Positions 1 to 16,271 of a stretch of DNA of 64,000 nt are shown here, piece after piece. Source of the DNA: an uncultured Persicobacter sp. (GTDB lineage Bacteria > Bacteroidota > Bacteroidia > Cytophagales > Cyclobacteriaceae); the NCBI GenBank assembly GCA_947498325.1, contig CANMKE010000008.1, positions 1-64,000 of the forward strand. Direction: 5' to 3'. How positions within the stretch are numbered: the first letter of the stretch is position 1; the number at the start of each line of letters is the position of its first letter. The position numbers were made by a program, and so were the translations under genes. A model generated the notes under the pieces. The model was given only the letters and a program-made list of their open reading frames with translations. It ran no database searches and had not been told where the DNA came from.

Positions 1-1
1 T

Positions 2-67: not shown

Positions 68-131
68 ACACCAGAAACAAAAGATCATAATCACCACACT
101 ACTTAAACAGTAGACACTTACCACACCCACG

Positions 132-161: not shown

Positions 162-790
162 ACGTCAGCATAAATACAAATGATGCTTTCATTTATTGAT
201 CGGTATTTATCTCAAATGTTTACCCTTTGATCGCATTAGTCTGAGAAGGATTTGCACAGAAATGGTAAGATGGGAATCGGTTTATCTATTTGAATTTTGG
301 GATGCCAAGAGCCGTTGGTCTACCAAAGCATGCTGATAATATTCTTGAAAAGCCCATTCATCGTTGAAACATCAAAGATCATGTAGAAATTCGGAGGGAT
401 CACAATATATTATTCAATAACCGAAATTTTCAAAGGAGAGGCCATCCATGGGTGAAATGCGCCATTAAATTAACTCGGGAGGGCAGTCTTAGTATCCCTC
501 ACTCGTGTCATCTCCTGTCTTAAATAAAATAACTATATGACTATTCTAATATTATGGACTTTATTATTTAAAATAAAAATGTTTTTAAAATAGGGGCTAC
601 GGATTACAAATCAGAAAATTTATTGCTTTTATCGTCTCAATGGCGTTTTGAGCTTGTTCTTTATGTATGATAACCTGTTTTTTGATGATAAAATGAGTTT
701 TTATGATTTATAAATAATTCAATATCATTGCAATGTGTTTAGCCGGCATATCCACACATTTCAACTTATGAAAATTTAAATTTTTTACTT
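162..790. other. Long leader / intergenic region before the first susC
   Basis: About 630 bases separate the terminator from the first susC. I see no credible gene with a start codon. A short open stretch at about 378-522 lacks an obvious start and matches nothing I recognise. The last 250 bases are very AT-rich and probably hold the susC promoter and a long 5' leader, but no promoter box was clear enough to place. The C-rich direct repeat found in the large locus downstream is not convincingly present. Confidence 0.4.
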
Positions 791-3700
791 ATGAACAAGT
801 GTTACCTTCCCCAGTTTGTTGGGGTATTTTTAGCAGTGTTTGTTCTGCTTGGGATCACCTTTGAGGCACAAGCTCAAAACCGAATTAGCGGTCGAGTGAT
901 TGACATCAATAATGGTGAAGCAATTATTGGTGCCAATATTATTGAAAAAGGAACGACCAACGGTGCGGTTACCGACCTGAACGGGTACTACGAATTAGTT
1001 GTATCTCCTGAAAGTCGGTTGATTTTTTCTTTTGTAGGCTATACTGCTATAGAGGAAACAGTGGGCAACCGGATGGTGATTGATATTGCTTTGAAAGAAG
1101 ATATTGAGACGCTCGAAGAGTTGGTAGTGGTTGGTTATGGTATTCAAAGGAAATCGGACCTGACGGGTTCAATTGCCTCGGTAAAAGCCAATGAGCTGAC
1201 CAAAACAGCGACACCAAATATTAACCAGGCCCTTCAAGGAAAAGTCGCCGGTGTGCAGGTTACCGCACAGTCGGGTTCCCCTGGCGCAGGAATGAACATC
1301 AATATTCGCGGTCTTGGGACGGTTAATGGCGGAGGACCATTATTTGTGATTGACGGGTTGCCCGTAACAGGTGATGCCTCTTTTTTGAACCCCAATGATA
1401 TTGAGTCTTTGGAAGTATTAAAAGATGCATCGGCCACGGCTATTTATGGTTCGCGAGGGGCCAATGGGGTGGTTTTAATTACTACTAAAAGTGGAAAAAA
1501 AGGAAAGAGTACGGTGAATTATAACACCTATGTGGGGGTTCAATCGGTATGGAATACCCTGGAGCTGACGTCTGCATCGGAATGGGCATTGCTTAAAAAT
1601 GAGGCGCGAAGGGCGGATGGATCGGTGGTTTTACCGGGCTTGGAAGATCCTGCAGCTTTGGGCGAAGGGACTGACTGGCAGAATGAGGTTTTCCGTTCGG
1701 CAATGATGATGAATCATCAGTTGAGTTTCAGTGGAGCCAATGAGCGATCAAGCTATTATATCTCCGGAGATTATATCGGCCAGGATGGGGTGATGGATGG
1801 CACAGATTTCCGTAGGCTATCATTGCGAACCAACGCCACCCATCAGGTGAAAGATTGGCTGAAAATTGGGTTGAATATGAACGTAGCGAACAGCAAGCGT
1901 AATATGGTGTTGGAGAACGACGAATTTGATGGTAATGCCCCTTTGAACGGTGCGATTACCCTGGATCCAGCAACGCCCGTTTATCGGGAAGATGGTTCAT
2001 TTGGATCTTCCACATTTTCAAATATTCGAAATCCGCGCGCCACAATTTTTTACAATAACAATACTGTAAGCGCCAATGATTTGGTAGGGAATATTTTTGG
2101 GGAAATAACTTTAGCCAAAGGGTTGGTCGCAAGATCCTCTGCTGGTTTGACTTACAATAATGGAACCCATGAGGTGTTTAACCCAAAATTCTTTGTTGCG
2201 AATTATCATCAGAATCAATCCAATAATTTGTCATTGAATAATTTCGAAAACTTCTCCTATACCTGGACAAATACGCTGAACTATATGTTCGACCTCAATG
2301 AAAAACATCAGTTTAATGTGCTGGTAGGCCAGGAAGTTCAGTTTGTTCAGAATAAAAGCATGATGGGTTTCATCTCCGGCATTCCTGATAAATATGCTAA
2401 ACATCCTACGCTTGAAAATGGGGACCCCACCACAGCAAAAGCCAATAGCTGGGAGCGAAGATATGGTCTGGTGTCCTATTTGAGTCGCCTGAATTATAAT
2501 TTCGATAATCGTTATTTGTTGACAGCCACCATGCGTGCCGATGGTTCTTCCCGTTTTGGGTCAAAAAAACCTTGGGGGTATTTCCCCTCTTTCGCTTTTG
2601 GATGGAACTTGCATAATGAACATTTTATGTCTTTGCCAACACAGGTGAGTATGCTGAAAGTTCGGGCAGGTTGGGGCCAAAATGGCAATCAAGATACTTC
2701 AGATGAATATTACCCTTACCTGACGCAAGTATCGACCCTACCGGCATATTCATTTGGGCAAGGGGATGGCATGATGAAGAACCCGGGCGCTGCGCCAATT
2801 GGTATCGGAAATAGTGAAATCAAATGGGAAACCACCACTACCCTAAATATTGGCCTTGATCTTGGCTTATTCGATGATCGACTGAATGTGAGTGGGGAGT
2901 ATTTTACCCGCGAGACTTCCGATATGCTGGTTCAATTACCTATCCCTGACCATGTAGGCATTGAGGCTGCGCCCTTCGTGAATGCAGGAGCGGTAAGAAA
3001 TGCAGGTTTTGAGTTTTCTGTTCAGTGGAGAGCGCAAAAAGAGGACTTCTCTTACAGCCTTGGGGCGAATGTAACAACGATAAAAAATGAGGTTACCAGT
3101 CTTGGAGAAGGCGGAGAACCGATTCTGTCCGGAAGCTTCCGAGGTATCGGTTATATTTCACGCACGGCCATCGGCCACCCGATTGGGGCGTTTTATGGGC
3201 ATAAAATGGTGGGTATTTTCCAGACTCAGGAGGAAATTGATGAATGGGGAGCACAGCAAAATGCCAAACCTGGGGATGTTAAATTTGCTAAGGATGAAAA
3301 TGGGGAACTTATTCAGGATTATATCGGTTCGCCACACCCGGACCTTTACCTGAATTTTAACGCTTCCTTTAGGTACAAGCAATTTGACCTTTCCATGAAC
3401 TTTCAGGGAACGGTAGGTAACGACATCTATAATGGAATTAGATATTATACCGAAGGAACAGGTTTTGGAAATTATAGCCGGAACATGTTGAACCGCTGGA
3501 CAGGGCCAGGCACCTCTAACGATGTCCCTCGTGTAACTGAAAATGGGGCACAGCAAAACCTCTATATTTCTGATCGATTTGTAGAAGACGGCTCTTACCT
3601 CAGACTCCAGAACCTGCAGTTCGGTTATACGCTGCCATCCAACTTGGTGAATCGTGCGGGACTCGAGAATGTACGCATTTACCTGTCTGGTCAGAATTTG

Positions 3701-3844
3701 TTTACCTTGACCAATTACAGCGGATTGGATCCGGAAATTGGTAGCCGAAGCACCAACCGTTCTGATGCCCTGGACATAGGAATTGACCGAGGGGTTTATC
3801 CGCAGGCAAGAATTTTTATGGTAGGCGCGAACATTAGTTTCTGA
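791..3844 (+). CDS. susC: SusC/RagA-type TonB-dependent outer-membrane transporter
   Basis: This 1017-residue protein imports oligosaccharides across the outer membrane using TonB energy. It starts with a signal peptide ending near AQAQN, followed by a carboxypeptidase-D regulatory-like domain (about residues 32-110), the SusC hallmark segment VVVGYGIQRKSDLTG, a plug domain containing ATAIYGSRGANGVV, and a long beta barrel ending in a terminal aromatic strand. Length is normal for the family. The SusD partner begins 19 bases downstream, giving the obligate pair. The substrate cannot be read from sequence; the GH3 gene nearby hints at a beta-glucoside, but the two are separated by an opposing gene. 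Confidence 0.95.
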   Translation: MNKCYLPQFVGVFLAVFVLLGITFEAQAQNRISGRVIDINNGEAIIGANIIEKGTTNGAVTDLNGYYELVVSPESRLIFSFVGYTAIEETVGNRMVIDIALKEDIETLEELVVVGYGIQRKSDLTGSIASVKANELTKTATPNINQALQGKVAGVQVTAQSGSPGAGMNINIRGLGTVNGGGPLFVIDGLPVTGDASFLNPNDIESLEVLKDASATAIYGSRGANGVVLITTKSGKKGKSTVNYNTYVGVQSVWNTLELTSASEWALLKNEARRADGSVVLPGLEDPAALGEGTDWQNEVFRSAMMMNHQLSFSGANERSSYYISGDYIGQDGVMDGTDFRRLSLRTNATHQVKDWLKIGLNMNVANSKRNMVLENDEFDGNAPLNGAITLDPATPVYREDGSFGSSTFSNIRNPRATIFYNNNTVSANDLVGNIFGEITLAKGLVARSSAGLTYNNGTHEVFNPKFFVANYHQNQSNNLSLNNFENFSYTWTNTLNYMFDLNEKHQFNVLVGQEVQFVQNKSMMGFISGIPDKYAKHPTLENGDPTTAKANSWERRYGLVSYLSRLNYNFDNRYLLTATMRADGSSRFGSKKPWGYFPSFAFGWNLHNEHFMSLPTQVSMLKVRAGWGQNGNQDTSDEYYPYLTQVSTLPAYSFGQGDGMMKNPGAAPIGIGNSEIKWETTTTLNIGLDLGLFDDRLNVSGEYFTRETSDMLVQLPIPDHVGIEAAPFVNAGAVRNAGFEFSVQWRAQKEDFSYSLGANVTTIKNEVTSLGEGGEPILSGSFRGIGYISRTAIGHPIGAFYGHKMVGIFQTQEEIDEWGAQQNAKPGDVKFAKDENGELIQDYIGSPHPDLYLNFNASFRYKQFDLSMNFQGTVGNDIYNGIRYYTEGTGFGNYSRNMLNRWTGPGTSNDVPRVTENGAQQNLYISDRFVEDGSYLRLQNLQFGYTLPSNLVNRAGLENVRIYLSGQNLFTLTNYSGLDPEIGSRSTNRSDALDIGIDRGVYPQARIFMVGANISF

Positions 3845-3863
3845 TTTTTTAAGCGAAAGAAAT

Positions 3864-5306
3864 ATGAATACAATATTTAAATATACCGGCATCCTGATGA
3901 TATTTTTAGGGATGATTTCCTGCCATGGTTTGCTGGATCAGGAGCCTATAGGACGAGTAGGCGCCGACGAATTTTTTGAAACCGAAGAAGATGCCATTTT
4001 GGCCGTTAATGCCGCTTATCAGCCGATGCAGTTTGAAGAAACCAAAGGTGCCTGGCACATGTGGTGGTTTTTCTCGGATATTCCTTCGGATGATGCCACC
4101 AAGGGAGGGGAGAATGAAGGTGATCAGGTAGGTGTTTACCATTTCGAAACCTTTCAAGCTGATCCTACCAACTTCCAGATTGTTGGTTTGTGGGCTGCCC
4201 TCTATCAAGGGATCTATCGGGCAAATGTGGTGCTGGATAATGTCCCCGGAGTGGAAATAGAGGAGCAAATGAAACACCGAATTTTAGCTGAAGCCCATTT
4301 TTTAAGAGCATTCTATTATTTTCGTTTGGTGAGAATTTTCGGTGGCGTTCCATTGGTGGATCATGTACTTGACCCTTCGGAATTCAAAATGGGACGAGCA
4401 AGCAAGGCGGAAATCTATGATTTGATTGAAGCAGACCTGACTTTTGCGAAAGAACACCTGCCGGTGAAATCAAGCTATGACCGCACCGAGCTGGGCCGGG
4501 CAACCAAAGGGGCGGCCTTGGCACTACTGTCGAAAGTGTATGTTTATGAACAAAATTGGCAGGGCGCCAAAAGTAACCTTGAGGCATTATTTTCCTTAGG
4601 AGAGTACAACTTGGACAGTGAATTTCAGCATATTTTTGCCAAAGATGGCGAGCACGGCGTAGAATCTATCTTTGAGATCAACCATACGCCTTCACCCGAT
4701 GGCTGGGGAAATGCCAATCAGGGAACAACGACACCGATATTCTGCGGTCCCCGTGCAGAAGGTGGATGGGGCTTTAATCAGGCAACTCAAAGCCTGGTGG
4801 ATGCTTTTGAACCGAATGATCCTCGTAAAAGAGCAACCATTACAGAACAGTATGAGCAACCTTTCGGCACTGGATTTTATGGTAAAAAATATACCTATAC
4901 CTGGGAGAGTGGCTATAAGCTTGAGGATATTGGCGATGCTCAATCCAATGGTGCTGTAAATGTACGTGTCATGCGTTTGGCGGATATGTACCTGTACTAT
5001 GCGGAGGCGGCTTACCATACGGGTGATGAGGCTACGGCACTGCAGTATGTCAATAAAGTCAGGGACCGCGTAGGGATGCCAGAGGTAAAAGCATCGGGTA
5101 CATCGGTTTTGGAGGCCATTTATCATGAAAGGCGTGTGGAGTTGGCTTTTGAAGGCAATCGCTTCTTTGATTTGGTGAGAACAGGGCGCGCAGCAAAAAT
5201 TTTGGAGGCCAATGGCTTCAAAGCTGGAAAGAGTGAACTTTTTCCAATTCCTGTAAATCAGATCGCGATCAGCGGCGGATTAATCACCCAAAACCCAAAC
5301 TATTGA
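3864..5306 (+). CDS. susD: SusD/RagB-type glycan-binding lipoprotein
   Basis: This 480-residue surface lipoprotein caps the SusC barrel and binds glycan. The N-terminus has a hydrophobic segment ending in a lipobox with Cys at about residue 20, followed by LLDQEPIG, the usual SusD opening. TPR-type helices follow, with the conserved HFLRAFYYFRLVRIFGG segment. The C-terminal part carries ERRVELAFEGNRFFDLVRTG, diagnostic of the family, and it ends in LITQNPNY, also typical. It sits 19 bases after susC and 17 bases before the PKD lipoprotein, so the three genes form one operon. Confidence 0.95.
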   Translation: MNTIFKYTGILMIFLGMISCHGLLDQEPIGRVGADEFFETEEDAILAVNAAYQPMQFEETKGAWHMWWFFSDIPSDDATKGGENEGDQVGVYHFETFQADPTNFQIVGLWAALYQGIYRANVVLDNVPGVEIEEQMKHRILAEAHFLRAFYYFRLVRIFGGVPLVDHVLDPSEFKMGRASKAEIYDLIEADLTFAKEHLPVKSSYDRTELGRATKGAALALLSKVYVYEQNWQGAKSNLEALFSLGEYNLDSEFQHIFAKDGEHGVESIFEINHTPSPDGWGNANQGTTTPIFCGPRAEGGWGFNQATQSLVDAFEPNDPRKRATITEQYEQPFGTGFYGKKYTYTWESGYKLEDIGDAQSNGAVNVRVMRLADMYLYYAEAAYHTGDEATALQYVNKVRDRVGMPEVKASGTSVLEAIYHERRVELAFEGNRFFDLVRTGRAAKILEANGFKAGKSELFPIPVNQIAISGGLITQNPNY

Positions 5307-5323
5307 TTTAAATTTTTTTGACG

Positions 5324-6244
5324 ATGAAAACGAATAAAATAGTATTTTTTATCTGGTTGCTAACAGCTTTTGGCTGTCAGCAATCAACAGAGGTCAACTG
5401 GGGGGAACTCCCAGCGCCAAGTTTCAAGGTGGAAAAGGTCGATGACAATACTGTCCGCTTGACCAATACCTCAACAGGGGGATTCCTGTACAGCTGGGAT
5501 TTTGGCAACTTGGAATTTCATACTTCCGATAACAGCACAGAGTCTTTTGAAGTAGGCTATGATTTTGCCGATGACTATCAAATTAAACTTACAGCTTCAG
5601 CAAAAGCCGGGGCGGTAACCACCACCCAAACTGTAACTATTGAGCATACCCTGCCAGAGATTTGTGAGGATGAAATACGGGCTAAACTATCCGGTGGATG
5701 CGATGGCGAAGGGCAAAAGACCTGGGTGTGGAGAAATGAGGTTGCCGGACATATCGGCGTTGGTGGAGATGAGGCAAATCCACCTTTCCCAGACTGGTGG
5801 GCCAATGAGCCCAATTCGGAGGATGCTTTGGTTTATGATGATGAGTTTATCTTTACCATCCGGGGGCAGTATATCCACGACAACAAAGGCATCAGTAAAT
5901 GCAATTGGTATGCTGCCAACGAATATTTAATCGGTGATCCGCGCACACCTTCCTTTACCGAGAAGGTTGGGCAATATCAAGATCCGATCATCCCTTTTGA
6001 TACTTCTGCCCCAACACGGTTCATTATTGAAGCCGCTGACCCTGCAGATGAGGACAACACGCTTGGTTTTCATACCATTACATTCTCTGCGGATAATTTC
6101 ATTGGGTTGTATAATGCGACAAGTGTATATTACATCGTAGAACTGACAGAAAATACCATGATGCTGCGTCATCGATATCTTGAGGTATGGGACGGACAGG
6201 AATCTACAGGTTGGAGATACCTGCAATTCAAGGTAAAAGAATAA
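5324..6244 (+). CDS. PKD-domain surface lipoprotein (SusE-position glycan-binding protein)
   Basis: This lipoprotein of about 306 residues is the third gene of the first sus operon. I chose the ATG at 5324 rather than the upstream TTG at 5318 because it directly precedes MKTNKIVFFIWLL and the lipobox Cys. A PKD-like beta-sandwich follows (about residues 35-105, containing YSWDFGNLE). The C-terminal half begins with a KTWVWRNEVAGHIGVG segment that resembles the second domain of other PKD-containing Sus-associated lipoproteins. By position it is probably an auxiliary surface glycan-binding protein; no enzymatic motif is visible. A hairpin at 6259-6299 follows. Confidence 0.75.
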   Translation: MKTNKIVFFIWLLTAFGCQQSTEVNWGELPAPSFKVEKVDDNTVRLTNTSTGGFLYSWDFGNLEFHTSDNSTESFEVGYDFADDYQIKLTASAKAGAVTTTQTVTIEHTLPEICEDEIRAKLSGGCDGEGQKTWVWRNEVAGHIGVGGDEANPPFPDWWANEPNSEDALVYDDEFIFTIRGQYIHDNKGISKCNWYAANEYLIGDPRTPSFTEKVGQYQDPIIPFDTSAPTRFIIEAADPADEDNTLGFHTITFSADNFIGLYNATSVYYIVELTENTMMLRHRYLEVWDGQESTGWRYLQFKVKE

Positions 6245-6258
6245 ACAAGAGGTAACGA

Positions 6259-6299
6259 TAAGCTTGATGGGAAGTGAAACGCTTACTTCCCTCAGCTTA
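6259..6299. terminator. Bidirectional hairpin between convergent genes
   Basis: GGGAAGT (6269-6275) pairs with ACTTCCC (6285-6291), extended by flanking imperfect AAGCT/AGCTT pairing. It lies between the PKD lipoprotein and the convergent receptor gene, whose stop codon is at 6297-6299, so it could end both transcripts. Confidence 0.65.
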
Positions 6300-8153
6300 A
6301 CTTTCTAATAAATAGGATTTAGGAGGATCCAGAATGTACATGGCCCAGCCAAGCGCGGGCTCTTGCAACTGATGCTTACTGAATAAAGCATCACGTTCTT
6401 TGACTTTTTTCTGAAACTTCCAGCACGTATTGGCATTGAGCGTGACCAGTTCACTCATCTTGGCTGAGGGCATTTGGAATTTATGGTGATAACTAAGGTA
6501 CAGCATATATAAGCCTTGCTGACAGCTAAAGTGCGCACGGAAGAAAAGGGTGTCTTTGGTCACGGATTCATTAAAACCACATTTGGTACAGCGCCTTGAC
6601 AAGCGTCCTTTGCCTACCGCAAATTTTTTGTTTCCGCACTTTTGGCATTTATAGCCTGAGGACCATTTTAGCTTTTCGATAAAGAGCAGAGAAGCCTCTT
6701 CGTCAGGGAACTTACGGCTGAAATCCTCATAGGAGAGGTCTATATCCAAAACATGTGCATCAGTAAGATCCTCAACATCAGCTTCAAGCTCGAGGTTGGC
6801 AGAATAGAGGAGTTGGTTCTTTTCCTCAATTTCGAGTGCATAGGTTTTCAGTTGCTGGTGCGCCAATTCAAGTTCATTGTTTCGAAGGGCAATGATCTGC
6901 TGTTGCTCACGAACTTTTTCAGTACGCTGAATCACTTTCTCGTTGATCACACGTTCATTTTCCTTCATTTGCCGAATAATCCGTCGTTGCGCCTTCTCCT
7001 TTTGTTGTTTTAAGATGCTGAACTTCAGACTCAGCCCCCAACTTAAAGCGGTAATCTCTATGAGCATCCCGATATTCAAGGCATAAGCATACCAAATCGT
7101 ATCGGTTGTAGCGATCCCCATTCGAGAGGAATTGATCAGTAAGCCGATCAGCATGAAAGTATAGCCAAAGACAAAGAACTTTCCGGGAAGGTAATTTTTC
7201 CTAACGGTATAAATTCCCATCAGGTATATCCAGCAAAAGGGTAAAAGATATAATGTGGCTTGCAAGGTGGGAGAGAGGAGTCCCTGCTCGCCAAAAATAT
7301 TTCCGATCACAGCCAATAGGCAGAGTATTTTTAACGGACTGAGCCACCCCTTTTTATAGATGAACGGTTTTAGAAAATTAACAGAATAAAAGGCGAATAC
7401 CACTAAAAATAGAATCCGTCTCGACTTGGCAAAGAGATCATTCAATAATGGGAATTTGTTCCATAACATTTGAAAGCCCAAGCCATCATCGTGCAGGGTC
7501 ATTAAGCATAACGAGGATACATATAACACAAAATATAAGTGAATAGGATCCTTTAAAGTGATGAATACAAATAGATTGTAAAAAATAAGGAAAAATATAA
7601 TACCATAAAATATGCCCAAGAATAAATACTCGGCAGTGATGTAGTGGATCAAAAATGCACTCGACCTGATCTTAAAAAACAGACCGATAGGATGATCAAA
7701 ATTTAACCTGATATAAATGGCGTCAGGCAATTGGCCTTCAAAATTTTTTATCGGATAAACAAAATTTTTATGATCAACTTCACGAACATCAAATATCTGA
7801 TCAAAACCACTGCTGGTAGAGCAAATGATGGTATCTGGGTATTGAAGGAAAAGTTGAATATCTGATATGTGGGGGTCAATGGCTTCCAAATACCATTGAT
7901 CTGCAGGGTTGAGCCGATCAGTGGGCTGGATTTTAAGATATATGTCCTGATCTACCCGCCGATGTAACTGATCCTTTTCAGTACACTTACGGAAAGGTAA
8001 TTGTGGAATTTGTGTATCACTAACTGGCCCATCTGGCGCAATATAAAACGATATATTTTTTGAGGTGTACACATATTCAATTCCTTTTCCAAATGTTTTT
8101 GAGTGACCTGAAAATAGGAATAGAAGAAAAATAATAGCGATAAAAAAACGCAT
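6297..8153 (-). CDS. 7TMR-DISM receptor fused to coiled coil and IS1595-type zinc-ribbon domain
   Basis: This is a 618-residue membrane protein. Residues 1-22 form a signal peptide. Residues 25-165 look like the extracellular beta-sandwich (7TMR-DISMED2 type) that binds ligands, often carbohydrates. Seven hydrophobic segments follow between about 172 and 380 (7TMR-DISM). Residues 380-465 are a charged coiled coil. In place of a kinase, cyclase or LytTR output, residues 475-590 resemble the N-terminal part of IS1595-family transposases: a zinc ribbon with Cys503, Cys506, Cys522 and Cys525, then a helical segment resembling their helix-turn-helix. The catalytic DDE domain is absent. It is transcribed divergently from the GH3 gene, 50 bases away, which suggests a membrane-bound regulator of the neighbouring PUL. 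That role is inference. Confidence 0.8.
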   Translation of the reverse strand: MRFFIAIIFLLFLFSGHSKTFGKGIEYVYTSKNISFYIAPDGPVSDTQIPQLPFRKCTEKDQLHRRVDQDIYLKIQPTDRLNPADQWYLEAIDPHISDIQLFLQYPDTIICSTSSGFDQIFDVREVDHKNFVYPIKNFEGQLPDAIYIRLNFDHPIGLFFKIRSSAFLIHYITAEYLFLGIFYGIIFFLIFYNLFVFITLKDPIHLYFVLYVSSLCLMTLHDDGLGFQMLWNKFPLLNDLFAKSRRILFLVVFAFYSVNFLKPFIYKKGWLSPLKILCLLAVIGNIFGEQGLLSPTLQATLYLLPFCWIYLMGIYTVRKNYLPGKFFVFGYTFMLIGLLINSSRMGIATTDTIWYAYALNIGMLIEITALSWGLSLKFSILKQQKEKAQRRIIRQMKENERVINEKVIQRTEKVREQQQIIALRNNELELAHQQLKTYALEIEEKNQLLYSANLELEADVEDLTDAHVLDIDLSYEDFSRKFPDEEASLLFIEKLKWSSGYKCQKCGNKKFAVGKGRLSRRCTKCGFNESVTKDTLFFRAHFSCQQGLYMLYLSYHHKFQMPSAKMSELVTLNANTCWKFQKKVKERDALFSKHQLQEPALGWAMYILDPPKSYLLES

Positions 8154-8203
8154 AGATTAAAAAATTGAAATTAATTTAATAATAGCAAAAGTAATAGATT
8201 GAT
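8154..8203. promoter_or_regulatory. Divergent promoter region between receptor and GH3
   Basis: Only 50 AT-rich bases separate the start codons of the receptor (minus strand) and the GH3 gene (plus strand). Both promoters must lie here or inside the neighbouring coding sequences. No clear boxes were identified. Confidence 0.45.
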
Positions 8204-10501
8204 ATGAGAAATTGGTTAATTGGATGTGGAATTTTAGTGGGGGCCGTCTTCTCGGAAGGAGCAATGGCACAACAGGAAACCACGGATATTGAGGCACTAA
8301 TTGCGGAAATGTCCATAGAGGAAAAAGCGGGACAAATGACTCAATTGTCCCTGGAGATTGTATCAAAAGGAGATGGGTATAATGTTCAGCGTCCACATGA
8401 ATTGGATATTGATAAACTGAAAAATGTTATTGTTGATCATCATGTTGGATCTATTCTGAATTGTGCCGGCGAGCCCCATACCCCGGCACGGTGGGCAGAA
8501 ATGATTGGGCAAATGCAGCAGTTGGCAACTCAACAAACCCGACTCGGAATTCCTTTACTTTATGGGATTGACGCCATTCACGGTACAAATTATACCAAAG
8601 GAGCCACTCTTTACCCTCAGGAAGTTGGACTCGCAGCAAGCTGGAACCCTGAATTGGTGGAGCAGGCGGCCGCCATGACTGCCTATGAAACGAGGGCTTC
8701 TTCCATTCCATGGACATTTAGCCCGGATGTGGATTTGGGAATTGACCCTCGATGGGCACGTATGTGGGAAGGCTTCGGTGAGGACCCCCATTTATCAGCA
8801 ACCATGGGTGTGGCAATGACCAAGGGTTTCGAAGGGGAAGACGTGAGTGCGCAGGATCGTGTGGCGGCTTGTTTAAAGCATTTTGTAGGTTATGGTGCAC
8901 CCCGAAGTGGGAAAGACCGTACGCCGGCATGGATTCCCGAGACCATGCTCAGAGAGCTATTTTTACCTCCTTTTCAGGCTGCAATAGATGCCGGGGCAAA
9001 GTCTATCATGATCAATTCAGGTGAGGTGAATGGTGTGCCGGTCCATGCTTCTTCCTGGTTGCTGACCGATGTTTTAAGAACGGAAATGGGCTTTGAGGGT
9101 GTTGTGGTAACGGACTGGTATGACATCTGGAATTTGGTGGAACGGCACCATATTGCTAAAGATCGCCGCGAGGCTGTGAAAATCTCTATCATGGCGGGTA
9201 TTGATATGTCAATGGTGCCGATGGACCTTGAGTTCACAGCTATCCTGATCGATCTGATTAAGACAAAAGAAATTCCTATGAGCAGGATTGATGACGCTGT
9301 TCGTAAGATTCTGATGATGAAAAAAGAGTTGGGTTTATTTGAAAAGCCAGTGATGAACCCTAAGGATTATCCATTATTTGGTAGTGAACAACACCGTCAG
9401 ATTGCAGAAAATGCTGCCCTGGAGTCCATTACTTTATTGAAAAACGATGCTGTGTTGCCATTGGATATAGGGCAGAAACTTTTGGTCGTGGGGCCCAACG
9501 GTAATAGCCTCCGCAGCATGAATGGTGGTTGGTCGTACACTTGGCAAGGAGAACAAACGGACGAATATGCCAAAGGGCATGATACCTTCTATGAAGCACT
9601 TAAAAGGTTAGGAGGCAATAAAAAGGTCGATTTTGAAGCTGGTGTTGCCTATGTTGAAGGAAAAGATTTTAAGCATGAGACCATGGAAAACATTGACCTT
9701 GTTAAGCAAAAAGCAGAAAAGGCAGATGTGATTATTTTGTGTTTAGGTGAGAATTCCTATACAGAAAAACCTGGAGATCTGGATGATCTGAATTTATCAG
9801 AACCACAGTTGGCCTTGGCAGAAGCAGTACTGAAAACACAGAAACCGGTAGTATTGGTACTAAATGAAGGCCGACCAAGGATTATCAGTAAAATTGCAGA
9901 CCGAGTAGATGCCGTGGTGCAAACCTACTTGCCAGGGAATGAAGGAGGAATAGCTTTGGCGAAATTGTTATTTGGACAGGAAAATTTCAGTGGAAAGTTA
10001 CCTTATACCTACCCCCGATACAGTAATGATCTGTTGCCATATTACCATAAATATTCAGAAGATTTAGCTCATAATGACGGAAACGTATATGAGGATCCAT
10101 TTTTTAATCCCCAATATGAATTCGGCTATGGGTTGAGTTACAGTACCTTCGGATATTCGAATTTACAAGTAGCACAATCACAGCTTAGTGCAGATGATCA
10201 ATTGGAAATAAGCATAAAAGTGACGAATACCGGTAAAATGGATGGAAAAGAAGTTGTTCAGCTTTACAGCAGCGATATATATGCTTCAGTAACGCCTTCT
10301 GTTAAACGTTTGCGTGCTTATAAAAAAATAGCCATCAAAGCGGGTGAAACCAAATCGGTAACGTTCAAGTTACCAATGAAAGACTTGGCTTTTGTGGGCC
10401 AAAATAACAAGTGGACTCTGGAGCCCGGAGAATTTAAAATTACGGTAGGTGATCAGGCCGTGATGATTAATTTAAAAGGACAGGTAACCACTTTACAGTA
10501 A
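8204..10501 (+). CDS. GH3 beta-glucosidase (BglX-like), periplasmic
   Basis: This 765-residue glycoside hydrolase family 3 enzyme releases terminal beta-linked sugars, most likely glucose. The signal peptide ends near AMAQQ. The (beta/alpha)8 domain has VGSILN, GIDAIHGTNY, GFGEDPHL and KHFVGYGAP motifs, and the nucleophile is Asp304 in VVVTDWYD. The second alpha/beta domain starts around ESITLLKND and contains the GENSYTE loop. A C-terminal fibronectin III-like domain follows the EFGYGLSY segment. The arrangement and motifs match BglX/ExoP-type beta-glucosidases more closely than xylosidases. It is a single gene with its own terminator at 10542 and lies next to the fusion receptor. Confidence 0.9.
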   Translation: MRNWLIGCGILVGAVFSEGAMAQQETTDIEALIAEMSIEEKAGQMTQLSLEIVSKGDGYNVQRPHELDIDKLKNVIVDHHVGSILNCAGEPHTPARWAEMIGQMQQLATQQTRLGIPLLYGIDAIHGTNYTKGATLYPQEVGLAASWNPELVEQAAAMTAYETRASSIPWTFSPDVDLGIDPRWARMWEGFGEDPHLSATMGVAMTKGFEGEDVSAQDRVAACLKHFVGYGAPRSGKDRTPAWIPETMLRELFLPPFQAAIDAGAKSIMINSGEVNGVPVHASSWLLTDVLRTEMGFEGVVVTDWYDIWNLVERHHIAKDRREAVKISIMAGIDMSMVPMDLEFTAILIDLIKTKEIPMSRIDDAVRKILMMKKELGLFEKPVMNPKDYPLFGSEQHRQIAENAALESITLLKNDAVLPLDIGQKLLVVGPNGNSLRSMNGGWSYTWQGEQTDEYAKGHDTFYEALKRLGGNKKVDFEAGVAYVEGKDFKHETMENIDLVKQKAEKADVIILCLGENSYTEKPGDLDDLNLSEPQLALAEAVLKTQKPVVLVLNEGRPRIISKIADRVDAVVQTYLPGNEGGIALAKLLFGQENFSGKLPYTYPRYSNDLLPYYHKYSEDLAHNDGNVYEDPFFNPQYEFGYGLSYSTFGYSNLQVAQSQLSADDQLEISIKVTNTGKMDGKEVVQLYSSDIYASVTPSVKRLRAYKKIAIKAGETKSVTFKLPMKDLAFVGQNNKWTLEPGEFKITVGDQAVMINLKGQVTTLQ

Positions 10502-10541
10502 AATCATTTCAGCCAAAATAACGGTGCTGTAGAGCATATTC

Positions 10542-10573
10542 AAGGACCTGACATTTATGTTGGGTCCTTTTTC
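10542..10573 (+). terminator. Rho-independent terminator after GH3
   Basis: AAGGACC (10542-10548) pairs with GGTCCTT (10563-10569), followed by a T run. It ends the single-gene GH3 transcript. Confidence 0.8.
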
Positions 10574-11042
10574 ATTGGAAAATTTTGTGACTGCAAGGCG
10601 TGGTGATAATCCTAAAAACACAGAAACGTTGAGCAAGTGACGAGACGAGCTTGCAAAATTATCCCTGTCCAAATTTGTTCAATTTAGACCTTGTAAACAC
10701 TACGGAATAAGAGAGCAACAGCGGTCAAGGTGCCAATTTCGAAGAGTTTGAAAATGGCTCATCAAAACATTCAAGCCAAGGAAATCATGAATTGTTGCAC
10801 AAGTTACATAAGCTGTATTTGCGATGTTCGTTGATCGATCATTTCTTGTAAGCTGTTAATCGCTACCCATTGTCCACTAACTATTTAAGAGGGTCGTCCA
10901 AACTTCCATTCCTGCCATTTCGGATCACGATAGTGTTCGGTGTAGGCTGTCTTTACAGCAATTTGGAGTAATCTCCCTCGAATCGTATCAGTTTATCAGG
11001 CAAATAGGTGTTCCTCTTCCCATTTCGGTTATACAAACCAAT
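10574..11042. other. Intergenic region with possible decayed coding sequence
   Basis: No intact gene is seen. On the minus strand, two open stretches in different frames, roughly 10890-10960 and 10960-11040, read like protein (for example AYTEHYRDPKWQEW before a stop). They may be the remains of one broken gene. I could not assign a family. The segment separates the first PUL from the large locus. Confidence 0.3.
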
Positions 11043-11080
11043 ACCCCCTCATTTTAAGTCATTTACCCCTGCCGTTTTTG
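11043..11080 (+). promoter_or_regulatory. C-rich 22-bp-period direct repeat, candidate HTCS operator (site 1)
   Basis: The left half ACCCCCTCATTTT (11043-11055) recurs as ACCCCTGCCGTTTTTG at 11065-11080, a period of 22 bases. The right half includes the CATTT-N-CCCC core shared with sites upstream of several other genes in this locus. The lyase gene starts at 11119. Confidence 0.6.
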
Positions 11081-11118
11081 CTTTTGATTTATAAATTCTA
11101 TGAACCAAAATAACTATT

Positions 11119-12690
11119 ATGACAATTTTTAAAATGACACTTCATGCCTTGGCTGGCATGCTGCTTTGCTGTGCATCGGTGTTGGCACAGCCAATAATTG
11201 ATGGGGAAGAGGCCTATATTATTTCCTCAGGAACAACATCAAACTTTGGGAAAGGTGCCTTAGTGGACAATGGGCAAACGATCGAAATTCATCGGGGGGG
11301 TGATTGGAATGGGGATGGTTTTGATGACCTTTTTCAATGGATTAGCGGTTACGCGCGAAAAGGAAATCACGCTGTGGGTTTGCAGTGCAATGCATCCTCA
11401 CGGCCAGGTGTTGGTAATCAGCGAAATGAGTATGTGATCAATAAGGACCTTCCTGTTTATGACGGATTCAAAGGTTATACTGGCTTTAGCTTTATGCTAA
11501 ACCCCAATGCCTGGGAGGCACCTGACGATTGGTTTGTGCTTTGGCAGTGGAAGCAGGCGCCAATTGTGGGTGAGGAAGGCCATGGGAATTTTCCGCTGGT
11601 AACGCTTTATTTTGAACAGGATGGCAGTAATGATATGTACCTGTATTCGAGGTATGGAGAGTACGGATGGACGGATACCAACAAGCCGCGAGGGCATAAG
11701 CGCACCATGGAAAATATTGAAGTAGGGGTTTGGTACGACGTGGTGGTCGGCATGACTTTCAATGCGACATCGTCTGAAGGCTGGGTGTATAGTTGGATAA
11801 AAAAGGCTTCTGAAACGGCGTATCGACAATACGGCCTGAAAGATATTTTGGTGGGCTACAGTAAACAGCCAAAAGTAATGGACTGGAATAAGTTCGGGAT
11901 TTACCGAGGGGCATCGCTGAAGCGCAATGGTGTTTATTTCGATGAGGTCAGGTATGGCGGCAGCTTTAATGAAGTGCGCATTCAGGATGAGATTTCGCCC
12001 CTTACTGATGGGGAATACTACATCAGCAGTAAAAATAGCACCACGCGGCTAATTGCCCCTTCCTGGGATGGTTTTAATGCCAGAATGAATACGGCAGGAA
12101 ACTTTTCCGATCAGAGGTGGACCGTTAAAAGTATCGGAGGGCAGCAATATACCCTTCAGAATGTAGGTACGGGCAGGTACCTTGAAGTGCCATACGCACG
12201 ATGTGGCACTGCCGAAAATGTAGCCTCCTGGACCTCGGCAAGTGGCAATCATCAAAAATGGTATATTGAGCCCGTGGGTGGTAGCTATCAGCTGAAGCCT
12301 GCCCATTGTACCAGTTTTTTTGCCAGCCGATTGAGTGATGCGAATGGGGCGAATATCGATTTACAGCGTAGTGTCGGCGATCTGCAATTATGGAATTTTA
12401 CCGCTACCTCGAATCTGCGAACCTCTGCCTTAGCATCGCTCGATCAAAAGCCGACGATTTATCCAAACCCTGCAAAATCGGGAGGTATTTTGCGAATTTA
12501 TGAGCCTCAAGAGGGCAGTTTTGAACGGGGAAATCTTTTCGATCTTTCGGGACGGCATCTCTATACTTTTGATCAATCACAAATTAAAAATTCGGTACTT
12601 GTACTGCCGCAAATATTGGAGTCGGGTACTTATTTACTTCTTTTGGAGGGAACACAGTTGACCAGAAAACAGGTGCTTCTTATTCATTAA
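11119..12690 (+). CDS. Secreted jelly-roll polysaccharide lyase with ricin-type and T9SS C-terminal domains
   Basis: This is a 523-residue extracellular enzyme predicted to cleave a uronic-acid polysaccharide by beta-elimination. The signal peptide ends near VLAQP. Residues about 30-290 form a beta jelly roll of the Pfam Polysacc_lyase (PF14099) kind, with GFSFMLNPNAW, DDWFVLWQWKQ and FGIYRGASL segments; lyase families such as PL20 and PL28 have comparable folds, but I cannot choose between families. Residues about 295-412 look like a ricin-type beta-trefoil lectin domain (LEVPYARCGTAENV). The last 75 residues (from about IYPNPAKSGG) are a type A T9SS sorting domain. It is a single gene between an operator-like repeat and a terminator. 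Confidence 0.8.
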   Translation: MTIFKMTLHALAGMLLCCASVLAQPIIDGEEAYIISSGTTSNFGKGALVDNGQTIEIHRGGDWNGDGFDDLFQWISGYARKGNHAVGLQCNASSRPGVGNQRNEYVINKDLPVYDGFKGYTGFSFMLNPNAWEAPDDWFVLWQWKQAPIVGEEGHGNFPLVTLYFEQDGSNDMYLYSRYGEYGWTDTNKPRGHKRTMENIEVGVWYDVVVGMTFNATSSEGWVYSWIKKASETAYRQYGLKDILVGYSKQPKVMDWNKFGIYRGASLKRNGVYFDEVRYGGSFNEVRIQDEISPLTDGEYYISSKNSTTRLIAPSWDGFNARMNTAGNFSDQRWTVKSIGGQQYTLQNVGTGRYLEVPYARCGTAENVASWTSASGNHQKWYIEPVGGSYQLKPAHCTSFFASRLSDANGANIDLQRSVGDLQLWNFTATSNLRTSALASLDQKPTIYPNPAKSGGILRIYEPQEGSFERGNLFDLSGRHLYTFDQSQIKNSVLVLPQILESGTYLLLLEGTQLTRKQVLLIH

Positions 12691-12715
12691 ATTGTAGGAG
12701 TGCATCATATCTCGG

Positions 12716-12737
12716 GGGCACCTTCGGGTGTCCTTTT
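12716..12737 (+). terminator. Rho-independent terminator after lyase
   Basis: GGGCACC (12716-12722) pairs with GGTGTCC (12727-12733) around a TTCG loop, followed by TTTT. It ends the lyase transcript. Confidence 0.8.
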
Positions 12738-12745
12738 CACTGCTT

Positions 12746-12798
12746 TGGGCCATTTGAGCCCATTTCACCCGTTATTTTACAAATATCCCCCTGTGATT
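12746..12798 (+). promoter_or_regulatory. Degenerate C-rich repeat upstream of GH105 (site 2, weak)
   Basis: CATTTCACCC (12761-12770) matches the right-half core of the other sites, and a second C-run, CCCCCTG, begins at 12787. Spacing is nearer 19-20 bases than 22, so this is a weaker match than sites 1, 3, 6 and 7. Confidence 0.35.
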
Positions 12799-12888
12799 AT
12801 CCGTGGGAAGACGGACTTTTGAGTATCAGTTTATATTACGGTGTACAACAGCCGCAGCTATTTTTTATAACATCAAATGGGAGTGTAT

Positions 12889-14043
12889 ATGAAGCGTGTA
12901 TTGACCCTTATTTTTTCTTTTTTTCTTTTTTCAAGCCTGTTCGCAAGCCAGCGAAAAAAAGCTTTCGAAATATCAAAATCTGAGGTATTACAAGCCTGCC
13001 AACGGGTAGCGGGCTGGCAGTTGGCACAACCTTTTGTGGGCGATCAATGGAACAACAACAAGCAAAACGACTGGATATATAGCACCTTCTGGACTGGACT
13101 CATAAAATTCCATCAGTATAAAAACAACGACGACTATCTGAAAGCCATGTTTCGAATGGGGCGATTGACCAACTGGGAGCCCATGGGCCGACCTTATGAT
13201 GCCAACATGCACCTGATCACCTATACACATTGCGAACTGTATGAAATTACTCAGGATCCTGCAATTATCGAAAAATCAATTTGGATGGCCAATATGCCCC
13301 TATTGAGATGGGTGGATGCCGATATGCACTTTGATGGAAACGACTACAAATATGAATGGTGGACCTGGTGCGATGCCTTATTTATGGCTCCACCAGCGTA
13401 TGCCCGCCTGGGTGCTCTGACGGCGGATAATAAATATTTCGACTATATGGATCAACAATGGTGGAATGTTTCTGACTACCTGTACAGTGCCACCGACAGT
13501 TTATATTTCAGGGATGATTCTTATTTTAGCAAGAAGAGTAAAAATGGACAGCCAGTGTTTTGGTCGAGGGGTAACGGCTGGGTACTCGGGGGCTTGTGCC
13601 TCGTGTTGGAACAATTGCCGAGCAATTACCCTAACCGCTATAAATATGAGCAACAATTTGTGGAGATGGTGACTAAAGTGGCTTCAATACAAACTGAGGA
13701 AGGTTTTTGGCCGACAAGCCTACTCGATCCTGAAGAATTTCCCCTTAAAGAAACCAGTGGCACTGCCTTTTTCTGTTATGCTATCGCCTGGGGGATAAAC
13801 CACGGTTACCTTGATCAGCATTCCTATATGCCTCAGCTCAACAAGGCATGGAAAAGCATTGCTGATGCTGTCCATCCCAATGGAATGCTTGGAAATGTGC
13901 AATTGGTTGGAGACTCCCCTGTGGGGGTCAGTAATAACGATACGGCACCTTACGGCCCAGGTGCTTTTTTGCTCGCAGGAGCAGAGCTCCTTAAACTCAT
14001 CGATAATAACAGCGAAAGAACAACCGGGCACACTGTCAAATAA
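12889..14043 (+). CDS. GH105-type unsaturated uronyl hydrolase, copy 1
   Basis: This protein of about 384 residues removes the 4,5-unsaturated uronic acid left by lyases at the non-reducing end. I start at the ATG at 12889 (MKRVLTLIFSFF, a signal peptide) rather than 12877; a GGGAG lies just upstream. The (alpha/alpha)6 barrel has the family motifs NWEPMGRPYDAN (Asp104), WTWCDALFMAPP (Asp162, the likely acid/base), FWSRGNGWVLGGL and TEEGFWPTSLLD. It is highly similar to the second copy at 44073. It heads an operon with the GH3 gene 23 bases downstream. The exact sugar removed is not fixed by the sequence. Confidence 0.88.
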   Translation: MKRVLTLIFSFFLFSSLFASQRKKAFEISKSEVLQACQRVAGWQLAQPFVGDQWNNNKQNDWIYSTFWTGLIKFHQYKNNDDYLKAMFRMGRLTNWEPMGRPYDANMHLITYTHCELYEITQDPAIIEKSIWMANMPLLRWVDADMHFDGNDYKYEWWTWCDALFMAPPAYARLGALTADNKYFDYMDQQWWNVSDYLYSATDSLYFRDDSYFSKKSKNGQPVFWSRGNGWVLGGLCLVLEQLPSNYPNRYKYEQQFVEMVTKVASIQTEEGFWPTSLLDPEEFPLKETSGTAFFCYAIAWGINHGYLDQHSYMPQLNKAWKSIADAVHPNGMLGNVQLVGDSPVGVSNNDTAPYGPGAFLLAGAELLKLIDNNSERTTGHTVK

Positions 14044-14066
14044 TTTTCTTTTTTTTTATCACGACC

Positions 14067-16271
14067 ATGAAGAGATTACTTTTTTTATTGCCGATATGGT
14101 GTTTTTCCTGCGGTATATCCAGCAACCAGACTGTCGATCAGGAAACGGAAGAACAAGTATGGACCAACCCCCATTTGCCGAATGAAGAAAGGGTTTCTCT
14201 GTTGATTGCTGAAATGACCATTGAAGAAAAAGCATCTCAGATGGTGAATGCAGCAAGCGAACTCAGTCGATTCAATATTCCTGAATATGAATGGTGGAAT
14301 GAAGCGCTGCATGGGCTGGCAAGAAGTGCTCGCGCAACGGTTTTTCCTCAGCCCATTGGTCTCGGAGCCACCTTCGATCCTGACCTGCTGCAGCGTATTG
14401 GTTCAGCGGTTGCTGATGAAGGCCGAGCGGTCTATAATCTCTCACAAAAAGTGGGTAACCGCCGACGATATAAGGGATTGACCTTTTGGTCGCCAAATGT
14501 GAATATATTCAGAGATGCCCGTTGGGGAAGAGGCCATGAAACCTACGGGGAAGATCCTTTTCTTGCGGGTCAGCTTGGCGCGGCTTATGTACGTGGGCTG
14601 CAGGGCGACCACCCCAAGTATTTGAAAGCAGCAGCCTGCGCTAAACATTTTGGGGTGCATAGCGGACCCGAAACAATGCGCTTTAATTTTGATGCGGTAG
14701 TTTCACCAAAAGATCTGTACGAAACTTACTTGCCCGCTTTTCAGTCGCTTGTCGATGCGAATGTTGAATCGGTGATGTGTGCCTACAATCAGGTCAATGG
14801 TGAACCGTGTTGTGGAAGCAGTTATTTTCTGAATGATCTACTGCGGAAGGAAATGGGCTTTAAAGGGCATGTGGTTACTGATTGTGGAGCCCTATTCAAC
14901 ATTCATCATAAGCAAAATTACACGGGCAATGACCTTGAAACCATACAGCTGGCGATCCGCAGTGGTGTAAACCTCAACTGTGGGGAAATTTATGCGCAAA
15001 TTCCTGAGGCTGTTGCACAGGGGTATATTACTGAAGCGGAAGTCGATCAATGTCTGAGCAGGTTATTACTCACCCGCTTTAAACTGGGGATGTTTGATCC
15101 TGAAGAACTGAACCCTTACAACCGCATAGACTCTACGGTCATCCACAGTGCCGCACATCAGGCACTTGCATTGGAAGCCGCTCAAAAGTCGATCGTTTTG
15201 CTGAAAAATAAAAACGGGATTCTGCCTTTGCAAAAATCCATTCCCTATGTTTTCGTTACCGGCCCCATGGCGGCGAATATTGATGTGCTGATCGGAAATT
15301 ACTATGGTATATCCGATAATATGGTTACTGTGCTCGAGGGGATTGCATCTAAAACTTCTGCTGCAAGTTCCATCAGGTATCAGCATGGAGTGCTCTTCAA
15401 CAGGTTCAATACCACCCCTTTGGGGCGCGGCGTTCATCGGGCGAAAGTGGCCGATGTAACCATTGCCGTGATGGGGATCAGCGGGATGATGGAGGGAGAA
15501 GACGGTGAAACAATTGCCTCGGAAACCAACGGCGACCGTGTATCGATTGAGTTGCCACCAAGCCAAATGGATTACCTGCGGAAAATGCGTAAATCCTGTG
15601 GTGATAAACCGCTCGTGGTGGTTTTTACAGGCGGAAGCCCTTTAAACATTGCCGAGGTAGAGGAGTTTGCTGATGCCATTGTTTATGCCTGGTACCCAGG
15701 GGAACAAGGCGGACAGGCGGTGGCAGATATCCTTTTTGGGGAGGTCAATCCTACAGGGAAATTACCCATGACTTTCCCGATGTCTGAGGCCCAAATTCCT
15801 GATTTTACGGATTATAGCCTGGAAGGCAGAACCTATAAGTACATGAAAGAAAAGCCACTTTATACTTTCGGTTATGGACTTACCTATGGCGAGCTAAAGT
15901 ATTCCGAGATCAGTATCGTCGAAAATACCCCGCAACAGTTCACGGCAAGTATTACCCTGACCAATCCCACGGATAAAACCGTGGATGATGTGATTCAGCT
16001 ATATACCGCCGTACCCCGAGCAGAGATCGCAAGCCCACAATCATCATTGCAGGGGGTTGAGCGAGTAAGTATTGGTGCCGGAGAACAGCAAAGACTGCAA
16101 TTTGAGATTTCAGCAGATATGATGTCTTATGTTGATCACGGTGGAAAAAAAAATCGCACAGATCAGTTGGTGGAAGTGTATATCGGCAACTGTTCCCCAT
16201 CTCAACGATCCAAAGAACTCGGTGGCATGTTTAGAAAATCTGTCATTGATTTGTCACCAAAAAGTATTTAA
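14067..16271 (+). CDS. GH3 beta-xylosidase-type lipoprotein
   Basis: This 734-residue family 3 glycosidase is probably anchored as a lipoprotein (Cys at about residue 12, PIWCFSCG, alternatively Cys15). The N-terminal domain has EYEWWNEALHGLAR, FWSPNVNIFRDARWGRG and ETYGEDPFL, which mark the beta-xylosidase/alpha-arabinosidase branch. The nucleophile is Asp272 in VVTDCGAL. The second domain starts near KSIVLLKNKNG, and a C-terminal fibronectin III-like domain follows FGYGLTY. It follows GH105 by 23 bases and is in the same operon. It would remove a terminal xylose- or arabinose-like sugar from oligosaccharides; other beta-glycosidase activities in this clade are possible. Confidence 0.88.
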   Translation: MKRLLFLLPIWCFSCGISSNQTVDQETEEQVWTNPHLPNEERVSLLIAEMTIEEKASQMVNAASELSRFNIPEYEWWNEALHGLARSARATVFPQPIGLGATFDPDLLQRIGSAVADEGRAVYNLSQKVGNRRRYKGLTFWSPNVNIFRDARWGRGHETYGEDPFLAGQLGAAYVRGLQGDHPKYLKAAACAKHFGVHSGPETMRFNFDAVVSPKDLYETYLPAFQSLVDANVESVMCAYNQVNGEPCCGSSYFLNDLLRKEMGFKGHVVTDCGALFNIHHKQNYTGNDLETIQLAIRSGVNLNCGEIYAQIPEAVAQGYITEAEVDQCLSRLLLTRFKLGMFDPEELNPYNRIDSTVIHSAAHQALALEAAQKSIVLLKNKNGILPLQKSIPYVFVTGPMAANIDVLIGNYYGISDNMVTVLEGIASKTSAASSIRYQHGVLFNRFNTTPLGRGVHRAKVADVTIAVMGISGMMEGEDGETIASETNGDRVSIELPPSQMDYLRKMRKSCGDKPLVVVFTGGSPLNIAEVEEFADAIVYAWYPGEQGGQAVADILFGEVNPTGKLPMTFPMSEAQIPDFTDYSLEGRTYKYMKEKPLYTFGYGLTYGELKYSEISIVENTPQQFTASITLTNPTDKTVDDVIQLYTAVPRAEIASPQSSLQGVERVSIGAGEQQRLQFEISADMMSYVDHGGKKNRTDQLVEVYIGNCSPSQRSKELGGMFRKSVIDLSPKSI

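Follow-up and report, generated by a model that had tools for sequence, protein, structure and literature searches.

What is the DNA-binding part of a transposase doing at the end of a membrane receptor? The question is raised by a gene at positions 6297-8153 of a 64,000-nucleotide stretch of DNA (the window) from an uncultured Persicobacter sp. of the Bacteroidota (GCA_947498325.1, contig CANMKE010000008.1, positions 1 to 64,000). Its product joins a seven-helix receptor of the 7TMR-DISM type to a zinc ribbon of the kind found in IS1595 transposases, and it lies beside a small polysaccharide utilization locus (PUL). We consider it quite probable that the receptor controls the transcription of a beta-glucan PUL, as a one-component regulator tethered to the membrane. 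A preliminary description, made from the sequence alone, had proposed a regulatory role; that role is now supported by conserved gene order, by an operator-like site co-inherited with the receptor, and by the swap of regulators at one operon, from which we infer, in turn, the binding of DNA.

The gene and the parts of its product are as follows.

6297-8153, reverse strand: receptor gene, 618 amino acids from an ATG start; 7TMR-DISM sensor that ends in a zinc ribbon of the IS1595 type followed by a helix-turn-helix (HTH), from the open reading frame, Pfam and AlphaFold2
7662-8078, reverse strand: residues 26-164, 7TMR-DISMED2 extracytoplasmic domain, presumed to bind the ligand (PF07696; beta-rich in the model)
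7014-7661, reverse strand: residues 165-380, seven-helix membrane region (PF07695 and model helices)
6762-7013, reverse strand: residues 381-464, continuous cytoplasmic helix, presumed to be a dimeric coiled coil or signalling helix (model)
6576-6707, reverse strand: residues 483-526, IS1595-type zinc ribbon (PF12760; Cys 503, 506, 522 and 525)
6375-6524, reverse strand: residues 544-593, HTH-like three-helix bundle (model; IS1595 transposases align over the same stretch)

Both sensor domains of the window protein are recognised by Pfam, PF07695 (7TMR-DISM_7TM) over residues 175-375 at 6.2e-31 (108.4 bits against a cut-off of 29) and PF07696 (7TMR-DISMED2) over residues 32-160 at 1.6e-9 (38.2 bits against 22). 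The model PF12760 (Zn_ribbon_IS1595) scores 22.4 bits (1.2e-4) in hmmscan over residues 483-526, slightly below its curated cut-off of 25.4, and 27.2 bits, above that cut-off, in a six-frame scan of the whole genome. Cys503, Cys506, Cys522 and Cys525 form a CxxC-x15-CxxC motif, and these four cysteines, as well as further residues, are invariant in all 53 aligned fusions, the window's included. The AlphaFold2 model of the 618-residue receptor has a mean pLDDT (predicted local distance difference test) of 85.9. It begins with an N-terminal helix at 2-20 and the beta-rich ectodomain at 26-164, and continues with membrane helices at 165-200, 203-223, 236-260, 271-289, 295-318 and 322-346 and a seventh that runs uninterrupted from 353 to 464, with pLDDT below 50 at 449-471. 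The cytoplasmic length of this helix is read as a presumed dimeric coiled coil. Three helices (544-556, 563-570 and 574-593) follow the zinc ribbon, and the DNA-binding domain folded alone reaches a pLDDT of 90. Ectodomain, seven helices and cysteine motif, all first read from the letters, are thus borne out by Pfam, model and alignment, and structure prediction, proposed at the outset as a check on the C-terminal region, returns a ribbon with a three-helix bundle. By the model, a sensor and a putative DNA-binding fold are combined in one chain.

The hidden Markov model (HMM) of the receptor domain extends over the three-helix stretch in IS1595 transposases. Structure comparison of the domain gives weak matches to homeodomain-type three-helix folds (best Z 4.7, with many ties and nothing at 5), Foldseek found no PDB match at E<=0.001, and a further search of the PDB with the domain returned nothing significant (best E 0.032). 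The catalytic DDE domain (PF12762) was absent from the window protein at E<=0.1 and was not listed for any of the 53 members at E<=0.01, in keeping with the original reading of an IS1595-like C-terminus stripped of its catalytic part. Pfam also gave no histidine kinase or receiver domain in the window protein or the 53 aligned members, and no cyclase domain in the window protein.

The receptor-zinc ribbon fusion is a widespread protein family, found in several families of the Bacteroidota. Among the 53 aligned fusions, PF07695 and PF07696 each match in 53 and PF12760 in 52 at E<=0.01, so that the HMM search suggested beforehand for proteins holding sensor and ribbon together finds all three models in 52 of the 53; the NCBIfam model for IS1595 transposases recognises seven of them at E<=1e-5. 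From the named genomes, the best 80 of 304 relatives were kept for locus analysis (L034-L113), and the fusion is present in all 80. Within the window's own family, 85 of 148 genomes carry a PF12760 domain and 63 do not; a fusion-sized frame (597-715 amino acids) occurs in at least 71 of the 148, and the 30 loci drawn from this search (L004-L033) all hold the receptor. In a sample of the phylum, the domain was matched in 47 of 395 genomes, with fusion-sized frames in four families (f1, f2, f4 and f5). Neither of the outcomes named beforehand as counting against the proposal occurred: the HMMs do recognise the C-terminus as an IS1595 zinc ribbon, and the fusion is neither confined to this strain nor a recent insertion sequence (IS) at the 3' end of the gene.

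The ancestry of the DNA-binding domain is recorded in a midpoint-rooted tree of 72 rows, built on few columns, which includes five proteins of genome G305 and omits the short protein L126. All 52 receptor domains form a single clade nested in the IS1595 transposases (support 100/99, present in all 200 bootstrap trees), which supports the proposal that a transposase DNA-binding domain was recruited. The nearest neighbours of the clade are the five G305 proteins, in which, by the alignment, the first two catalytic aspartates of the DDE domain are lost; next comes L127, with its aspartates intact, at a weak fork (88/49). On this arrangement of receptor clade and neighbours, the tree suggests that the domain was recruited once, perhaps out of a lineage that was by then catalytically decayed.

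Three further sets of proteins deserve mention. G305 has ten places with the domain, eight of which were fetched (L146-L153, contexts L158-L165); the proteins, diverged and about 304-332 amino acids long, consist of zinc ribbon-HTH and a DDE-like domain without its first two aspartates. They are dispersed, two with a SusC gene some kilobases off, and no locus among them is of the receptor type. Closely akin to the receptor domain, perhaps, these proteins may have been domesticated as regulators. Two short proteins, L126:1194-1607 (137 amino acids) and L128:1471-2028 (185 amino acids), are hardly more than a zinc ribbon-HTH and could be either soluble regulators or broken transposases; the locus of L128 (L167) lies downstream of SusC/SusD-like genes. 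In G113, a genome of the window's genus, a near-identical IS1595-family element in three copies (L154-L156) with inverted ends of the TAGAGGTCGGTAG type is apparently still mobile, or was so recently.

Relatives of the receptor mostly keep the same company. SusC is present in 69 of the 80 named loci and stands directly next to the receptor gene (+1), on the same strand, in 64 of the 80; the usual order after susC is SusD, a Big_5/Laminin_G lipoprotein and a PF10091 enzyme (glycoside hydrolase family 144, GH144). The solved structures matched by a member of the PF10091 cluster include 'putative glucoamylases' and the endo-beta-1,2-glucanase 5gzh (2.9e-145), so that most of the named loci may be beta-1,2-glucan PULs. 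Apart from the susC-GH144 genes, no cluster of neighbours recurs in more than six of the 80 loci (blastp clusters, partly annotated). The fusion is also near SusC/SusD in all five genomes fetched from outside the family, so that the same architecture does recur beside PULs elsewhere, as the preliminary description had suggested checking.

The gap between receptor and susC contains a directional element. In 67 of the 80 loci susC begins within 900 bp; 60 dereplicated gaps served for motif discovery and 63 were aligned on the site. Expectation-maximisation returned a motif of 34 bp that raised the log-likelihood by 764 (60 starts); the gain in three shuffled sets (25 starts each) was 180-184. 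In most relatives the element, about 34 bp long, has the consensus awCGtTTgAAaTCAATGTTTTTwttsCGnaAAAa. On these training data its 24-bp core reaches at least 11 bits in 65 of the 67 gaps, the exceptions being L069, whose called gap is just 105 bp, and L101; core windows at that score number 94 in the 17.7 kb of gaps and 11 in the 987 kb of the same loci outside them. In a hold-out test of 66 gaps, two-fold with random halves and hence with relatives on both sides, 59 of the 66 held-out gaps reached 11 bits. The sites are strongly ordered: 89 of 91 non-overlapping ones face susC, and in 57 of 65 gaps the distance from the best site to the start of susC is 130-200 bp. Often the core is duplicated: there are 33 cases with a second site of at least 8 bits, and in 31 of them it stands 64-66 bp further upstream. 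A sigma-type promoter string follows 7 of the 63 sites, against 2.5 expected by shuffling, a weak signal. Autoregulation of the receptor was considered and rejected, as among the 80 stretches that precede receptor genes just 2 score 11 bits or more.

Two side observations concern this gap. A second short element, CAAACGTTT or CGTTTGnAA, occurs near the cores in receptor-susC gaps of the named loci (for instance L081, L082 and L097), its positions varying by group; it may be the site of another factor. In two loci (L036 and L046) the receptor adjoins a fumarase-type gene, recognised by Pfam in L036 and by membership of the same cluster in L046; no operator-like site was found in these two genomes at E<=1e-3, and the receptor may control something else there.

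The short core pattern is too loose for whole genomes, matching in 146 of 148, with a reversed control, judged by eye, also common. For this reason a 100-position model of the tandem site was built, for which 58 loci qualified and 55 were used (L050, L092 and L109 were left out by hand). Over the 148 genomes it gives 24 matches at E<=1e-4, none of them in a genome that lacks the domain. Twenty are found immediately 3' of a receptor gene; that of G074 is 1.7 kb 3' of one, before susC; and two are at unlinked susC operons. Some of the 148 genomes also fed the model (G127 and G142, for instance, have coordinates in common with named-locus genomes), and the telling part is the lack of matches elsewhere. 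Since genomes of such bacteria carry many other susC genes, what the model finds is no general susC promoter. Three species have an unlinked receptor (G036, G142 and Fulvivirga kasyanovii, G535) and are probably close kin; in each, the site stands at a distant susC-susD-lipoprotein operon with 20-27 bits by held-out matrices. The G142 site occupies the same place as in a Fulvivirga sediminis genome; GH144 follows the distant operon in G142 and G535, and the G036 stretch ends inside the next gene. Nine genomes were picked because their receptors are unlinked or their sites weak; a match at E<=1e-3 occurs in three of them, that of G540 being the linked site of another receptor there.

The converse comparison uses genomes from which the receptor is missing. 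GH144 is matched at E<=1e-40 in 19 of the 63 genomes of the family that lack the domain. Thirteen of the 19 were fetched, and in 11 of the 13 SusC is part of the operon. The site reaches 11 bits in none of the 11 (best 10.2). One of them, G015, shares its genus with G093 and G136, which hold both receptor and site. FecR stands beside SusC in 7 of the 11 operons, and a sigma-70-type gene adjoins in five of these seven. In the other four no regulator was recognised among the genes checked: those of L284 and L296 matched no family, L285 has an AAA protein there and L293 a binding protein. In receptor-less loci L286-L292, the SusC of the GH144 operon is about 100 amino acids longer (1120-1178) and is preceded by FecR, five having the sigma-70-type gene, a pattern that reads as an exchange of regulators at one operon.

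Site and domain also diverge together. Over 63 loci, divergence of the site correlates with that of the DNA-binding domain at r 0.63. Controlling for the N-terminus leaves a partial correlation of 0.26 (permutation p 0.001), and controlling for SusC one of 0.62; between site and SusC, given the domain, it is -0.002. Binding of the site by the zinc ribbon-HTH is predicted from this covariation and from co-inheritance.

Our proposal for the mechanism is as follows. The periplasmic DISMED2 domain would sense a glucan breakdown product, and the signal would be relayed across the seven membrane helices into the long cytoplasmic helix, through which two receptors are probably joined as a dimer. The zinc ribbon and HTH of the IS1595-transposase lineage would bind DNA upstream of susC, with contacts at each core, and the bound receptor would turn on the transport and degradation genes, activation being the presumed sign of its effect on susC. 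A distance of 65 bp is about six helical turns and would place both copies of the site on nearly the same face, which would suit a pair of tethered dimers.

A number of results weigh against the tethered regulator. Neither the genome of the window nor its sister genome contains a match to the site model at E<=0.05, and in window positions 1-12000 with filters off the model finds nothing at E<0.2 (best E 0.2). The window's domain is among the most diverged in the 72-row tree, with an end branch of 1.67. One of the 24 genome-wide matches (G031) is at no susC, and six of the nine genomes picked for unlinked receptors or weak sites have no match at E<=1e-3. At 9 bits rather than 11, one of the 11 receptor-less operons would pass. 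The TAGAGGTCGGTAG-type ends of the IS element in G113 are unlike the operator-like site. Divergence of the site also follows the receptor N-terminus (r 0.61; partial 0.16 given the domain, p 0.003), as expected within one gene, but this is not specific to the DNA-binding part.

The last point bears on another explanation, in which the site before susC belongs to an unlinked regulator and the receptor, co-inherited with it, acts via protein contacts, its zinc ribbon-HTH not reading the site. The second short element near the cores, which may be a separate operator, would suit such a regulator as well. Nevertheless, no neighbour cluster beyond the susC-GH144 genes passes six of the 80 loci, the site is kept in 3 of 3 cases when the receptor lies elsewhere and reaches 11 bits in 0 of 11 when the receptor is absent and the operon kept, and divergence of the site is tracked somewhat more closely by the DNA-binding domain than by the N-terminus; we regard this explanation as unlikely. 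We would give similarly low weight to regulated proteolysis, whereby a signal-dependent cut in the linker (about residues 449-471) would free the zinc ribbon-HTH as a soluble regulator. The AlphaFold2 model does have its low-confidence stretch just before the DNA-binding domain, but a flexible linker is equally needed by a tethered domain, and the two proposals differ in the last step alone.

Two further readings fare worse. An RNA leader or attenuator would account for the strong orientation of the gap element to susC (89 of 91) and for its runs of T and A, yet RNAalifold predicts 0 pairs on the 55 aligned site sequences and Rfam reports only tRNAs above thresholds in eight loci; an RNA element was rejected on these grounds and appears very improbable. 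The least credible reading of all takes the C-terminus for a functionless leftover of a transposon insertion. The domain is indeed related to IS1595 transposases, but the reading is contradicted by conservation, in that the cysteines and other residues are invariant in 53 of 53, PF12760 is recognised in 52 of 53, and the domains form one clade across families. A recent IS insertion at the 3' end of the receptor gene was rejected on account of that clade, and a chance zinc-binding motif on account of its conservation in 53 of 53.

Returning to the tethered regulator, we lean towards a broader proposal that goes with it: a new class of PUL regulator, in which a catalytically decayed transposase lineage would have given its DNA-binding half once to a seven-helix receptor. 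This receptor would then have spread in the Bacteroidota as a tethered beta-glucan switch on tandem operators 65 bp apart, displacing or displaced by extracytoplasmic function (ECF) sigma factor/FecR pairs and hybrid two-component sensors (HTCS) at the same operons.

In the window itself, the surroundings of the receptor gene are these.

791-3844, forward strand: SusC/RagA TonB-dependent transporter (TIGR04056, 8.1e-275), presumed target of the receptor
3864-5306, forward strand: SusD-family surface lipoprotein (PF07980, 4.3e-36)
5318-6244, forward strand: PKD-domain surface glycan-binding lipoprotein (match to PDB 7kv5 'PKD domain protein', 2.8e-16)
8204-10501, forward strand: divergent GH3 enzyme, beta-glucosidase-type (PF00933, 1.4e-74), 50 bp from the receptor gene
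541-790, forward strand: stretch before susC in which, by analogy, an operator should lie; the search gave none (best core score about 0 over 790 bp)

SusC, SusD, PKD lipoprotein and GH3 confirm the small PUL and the divergent GH3 gene 50 bp away that were described at the outset. From its position, we take the PKD lipoprotein to be like SGBP-B (surface glycan-binding protein B). The best NCBIfam model for the GH3 enzyme is BglX, at 503.6 bits below its cut-off of 666. An operator at 8154-8203, the 50 bp that separate the receptor gene from GH3 and for which the earlier description had suggested a test of DNA binding, is not borne out: the best core score there is -7.9, and the site of the relatives lies upstream of susC. 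Throughout the 790 bp upstream of the window's susC the best core score is about 0. Since the site model finds nothing there, the presumed target of the window copy is assigned by position.

PF12760 is found in three places of the window's genome at E<=0.001, all three receptor fusions; they are diverged paralogues, the other two being 31% and 26% identical to the window's, and not an insertion sequence. All three loci are PULs of the beta-glucan type and contain SusC, SusD, a PKD lipoprotein and GH3, that of the window without extras, that on C32 with GH16 and that on C30 with GH5, GH2 and GH16; the PKD protein of C32 matches 7kv5 at 3.4e-27. The window copy is thus a diverged paralogue, and its locus resembles 1,3-glucan PULs, with the receptor in the place taken by an HTCS in characterised Bacteroides loci. 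Upstream of the susC of the C30 paralogue are two TGTTTTTTnGCG copies 66 bp apart, the sole such pair in the genome. The pair fits the operator spacing and is suggestive only, the pattern having been written after seeing the sequence and the site model giving no match there at E<=0.05. Further along, window positions 11119-18752 hold another degradation cluster, with a ricin-lectin polysaccharide lyase bearing a type IX secretion system (T9SS) tail, GH88, an Xyl3A-like GH3 and a lyase of the heparinase II type, which scores 556 bits with the HepB model (cut-off 600).

The receptor can be set beside several known systems. 7TMR-DISM receptors (PF07695/PF07696) share with it the DISMED2 ectodomain, the seven helices and the cytoplasmic helix; kinases and cyclases are among their outputs, and ChiS is a membrane-bound regulator of chitin use. 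In the accessible parts of the respective papers, GGDEF (PMC5342196) and the ChiS domain (PMC8092284) are known outputs as well. ChiS-family proteins with a 7TMR-DISM input are likewise receptors ending in a C-terminal DNA-binding domain; compared by the description in the accessible part of PMC8092284, they differ in belonging to Proteobacteria and in having a cryptic HTH variant rather than a transposase zinc ribbon and HTH, and no tie to SusCD operons is seen in that part. IS1595-family transposases (PF12760 + PF12762) have the same zinc ribbon followed by the same helical stretch and are the nearest relatives of the receptor's DNA-binding domain; unlike them, the receptor has no DDE domain and carries the ribbon fused behind a sensor.

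ECF sigma and FecR, a sigma factor and its anti-sigma factor, are a further known PUL control in the Bacteroidota; FecR stands at the same susC-GH144 operon in 7 of the 11 receptor-less relatives, with a sigma-70-type gene adjoining in five, and the proteins are unrelated to the receptor. The accessible part of PMC7157763 describes HTCS and SusR-like controls of Bacteroidota PULs. There, the HTCS of Bacteroides 1,3-glucan PULs regulate a syntenic core of TonB-dependent transporter, SGBP-A (SusD), SGBP-B and GH3 like that of the window; unlike an HTCS, the window receptor is without kinase or receiver and would itself bind DNA. A literature search, with most subscription papers lying outside it, returned no paper pairing 7TMR-DISM with a zinc ribbon and none pairing it with polysaccharide utilization. 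As far as the accessible texts go, a 7TMR-DISM receptor with a DNA-binding output is already known, and that search brought up none from the Bacteroidota that is linked to SusCD operons and owes its output to a transposase.

PULs decide which glycans a bacterium eats, and the known controls of those in the Bacteroidota are few. To these the present family would add a kinase-free control with a predicted operator precise enough for direct test. It also offers a tree-resolved case of a transposase DNA-binding domain becoming part of a sensory regulator, with DDE-decayed relatives as possible intermediates, and a natural swap experiment, in which one operon is placed under two unrelated kinds of control. 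Finally, it predicts that some proteins recognisable only as seven-helix signalling proteins would be sugar sensors.

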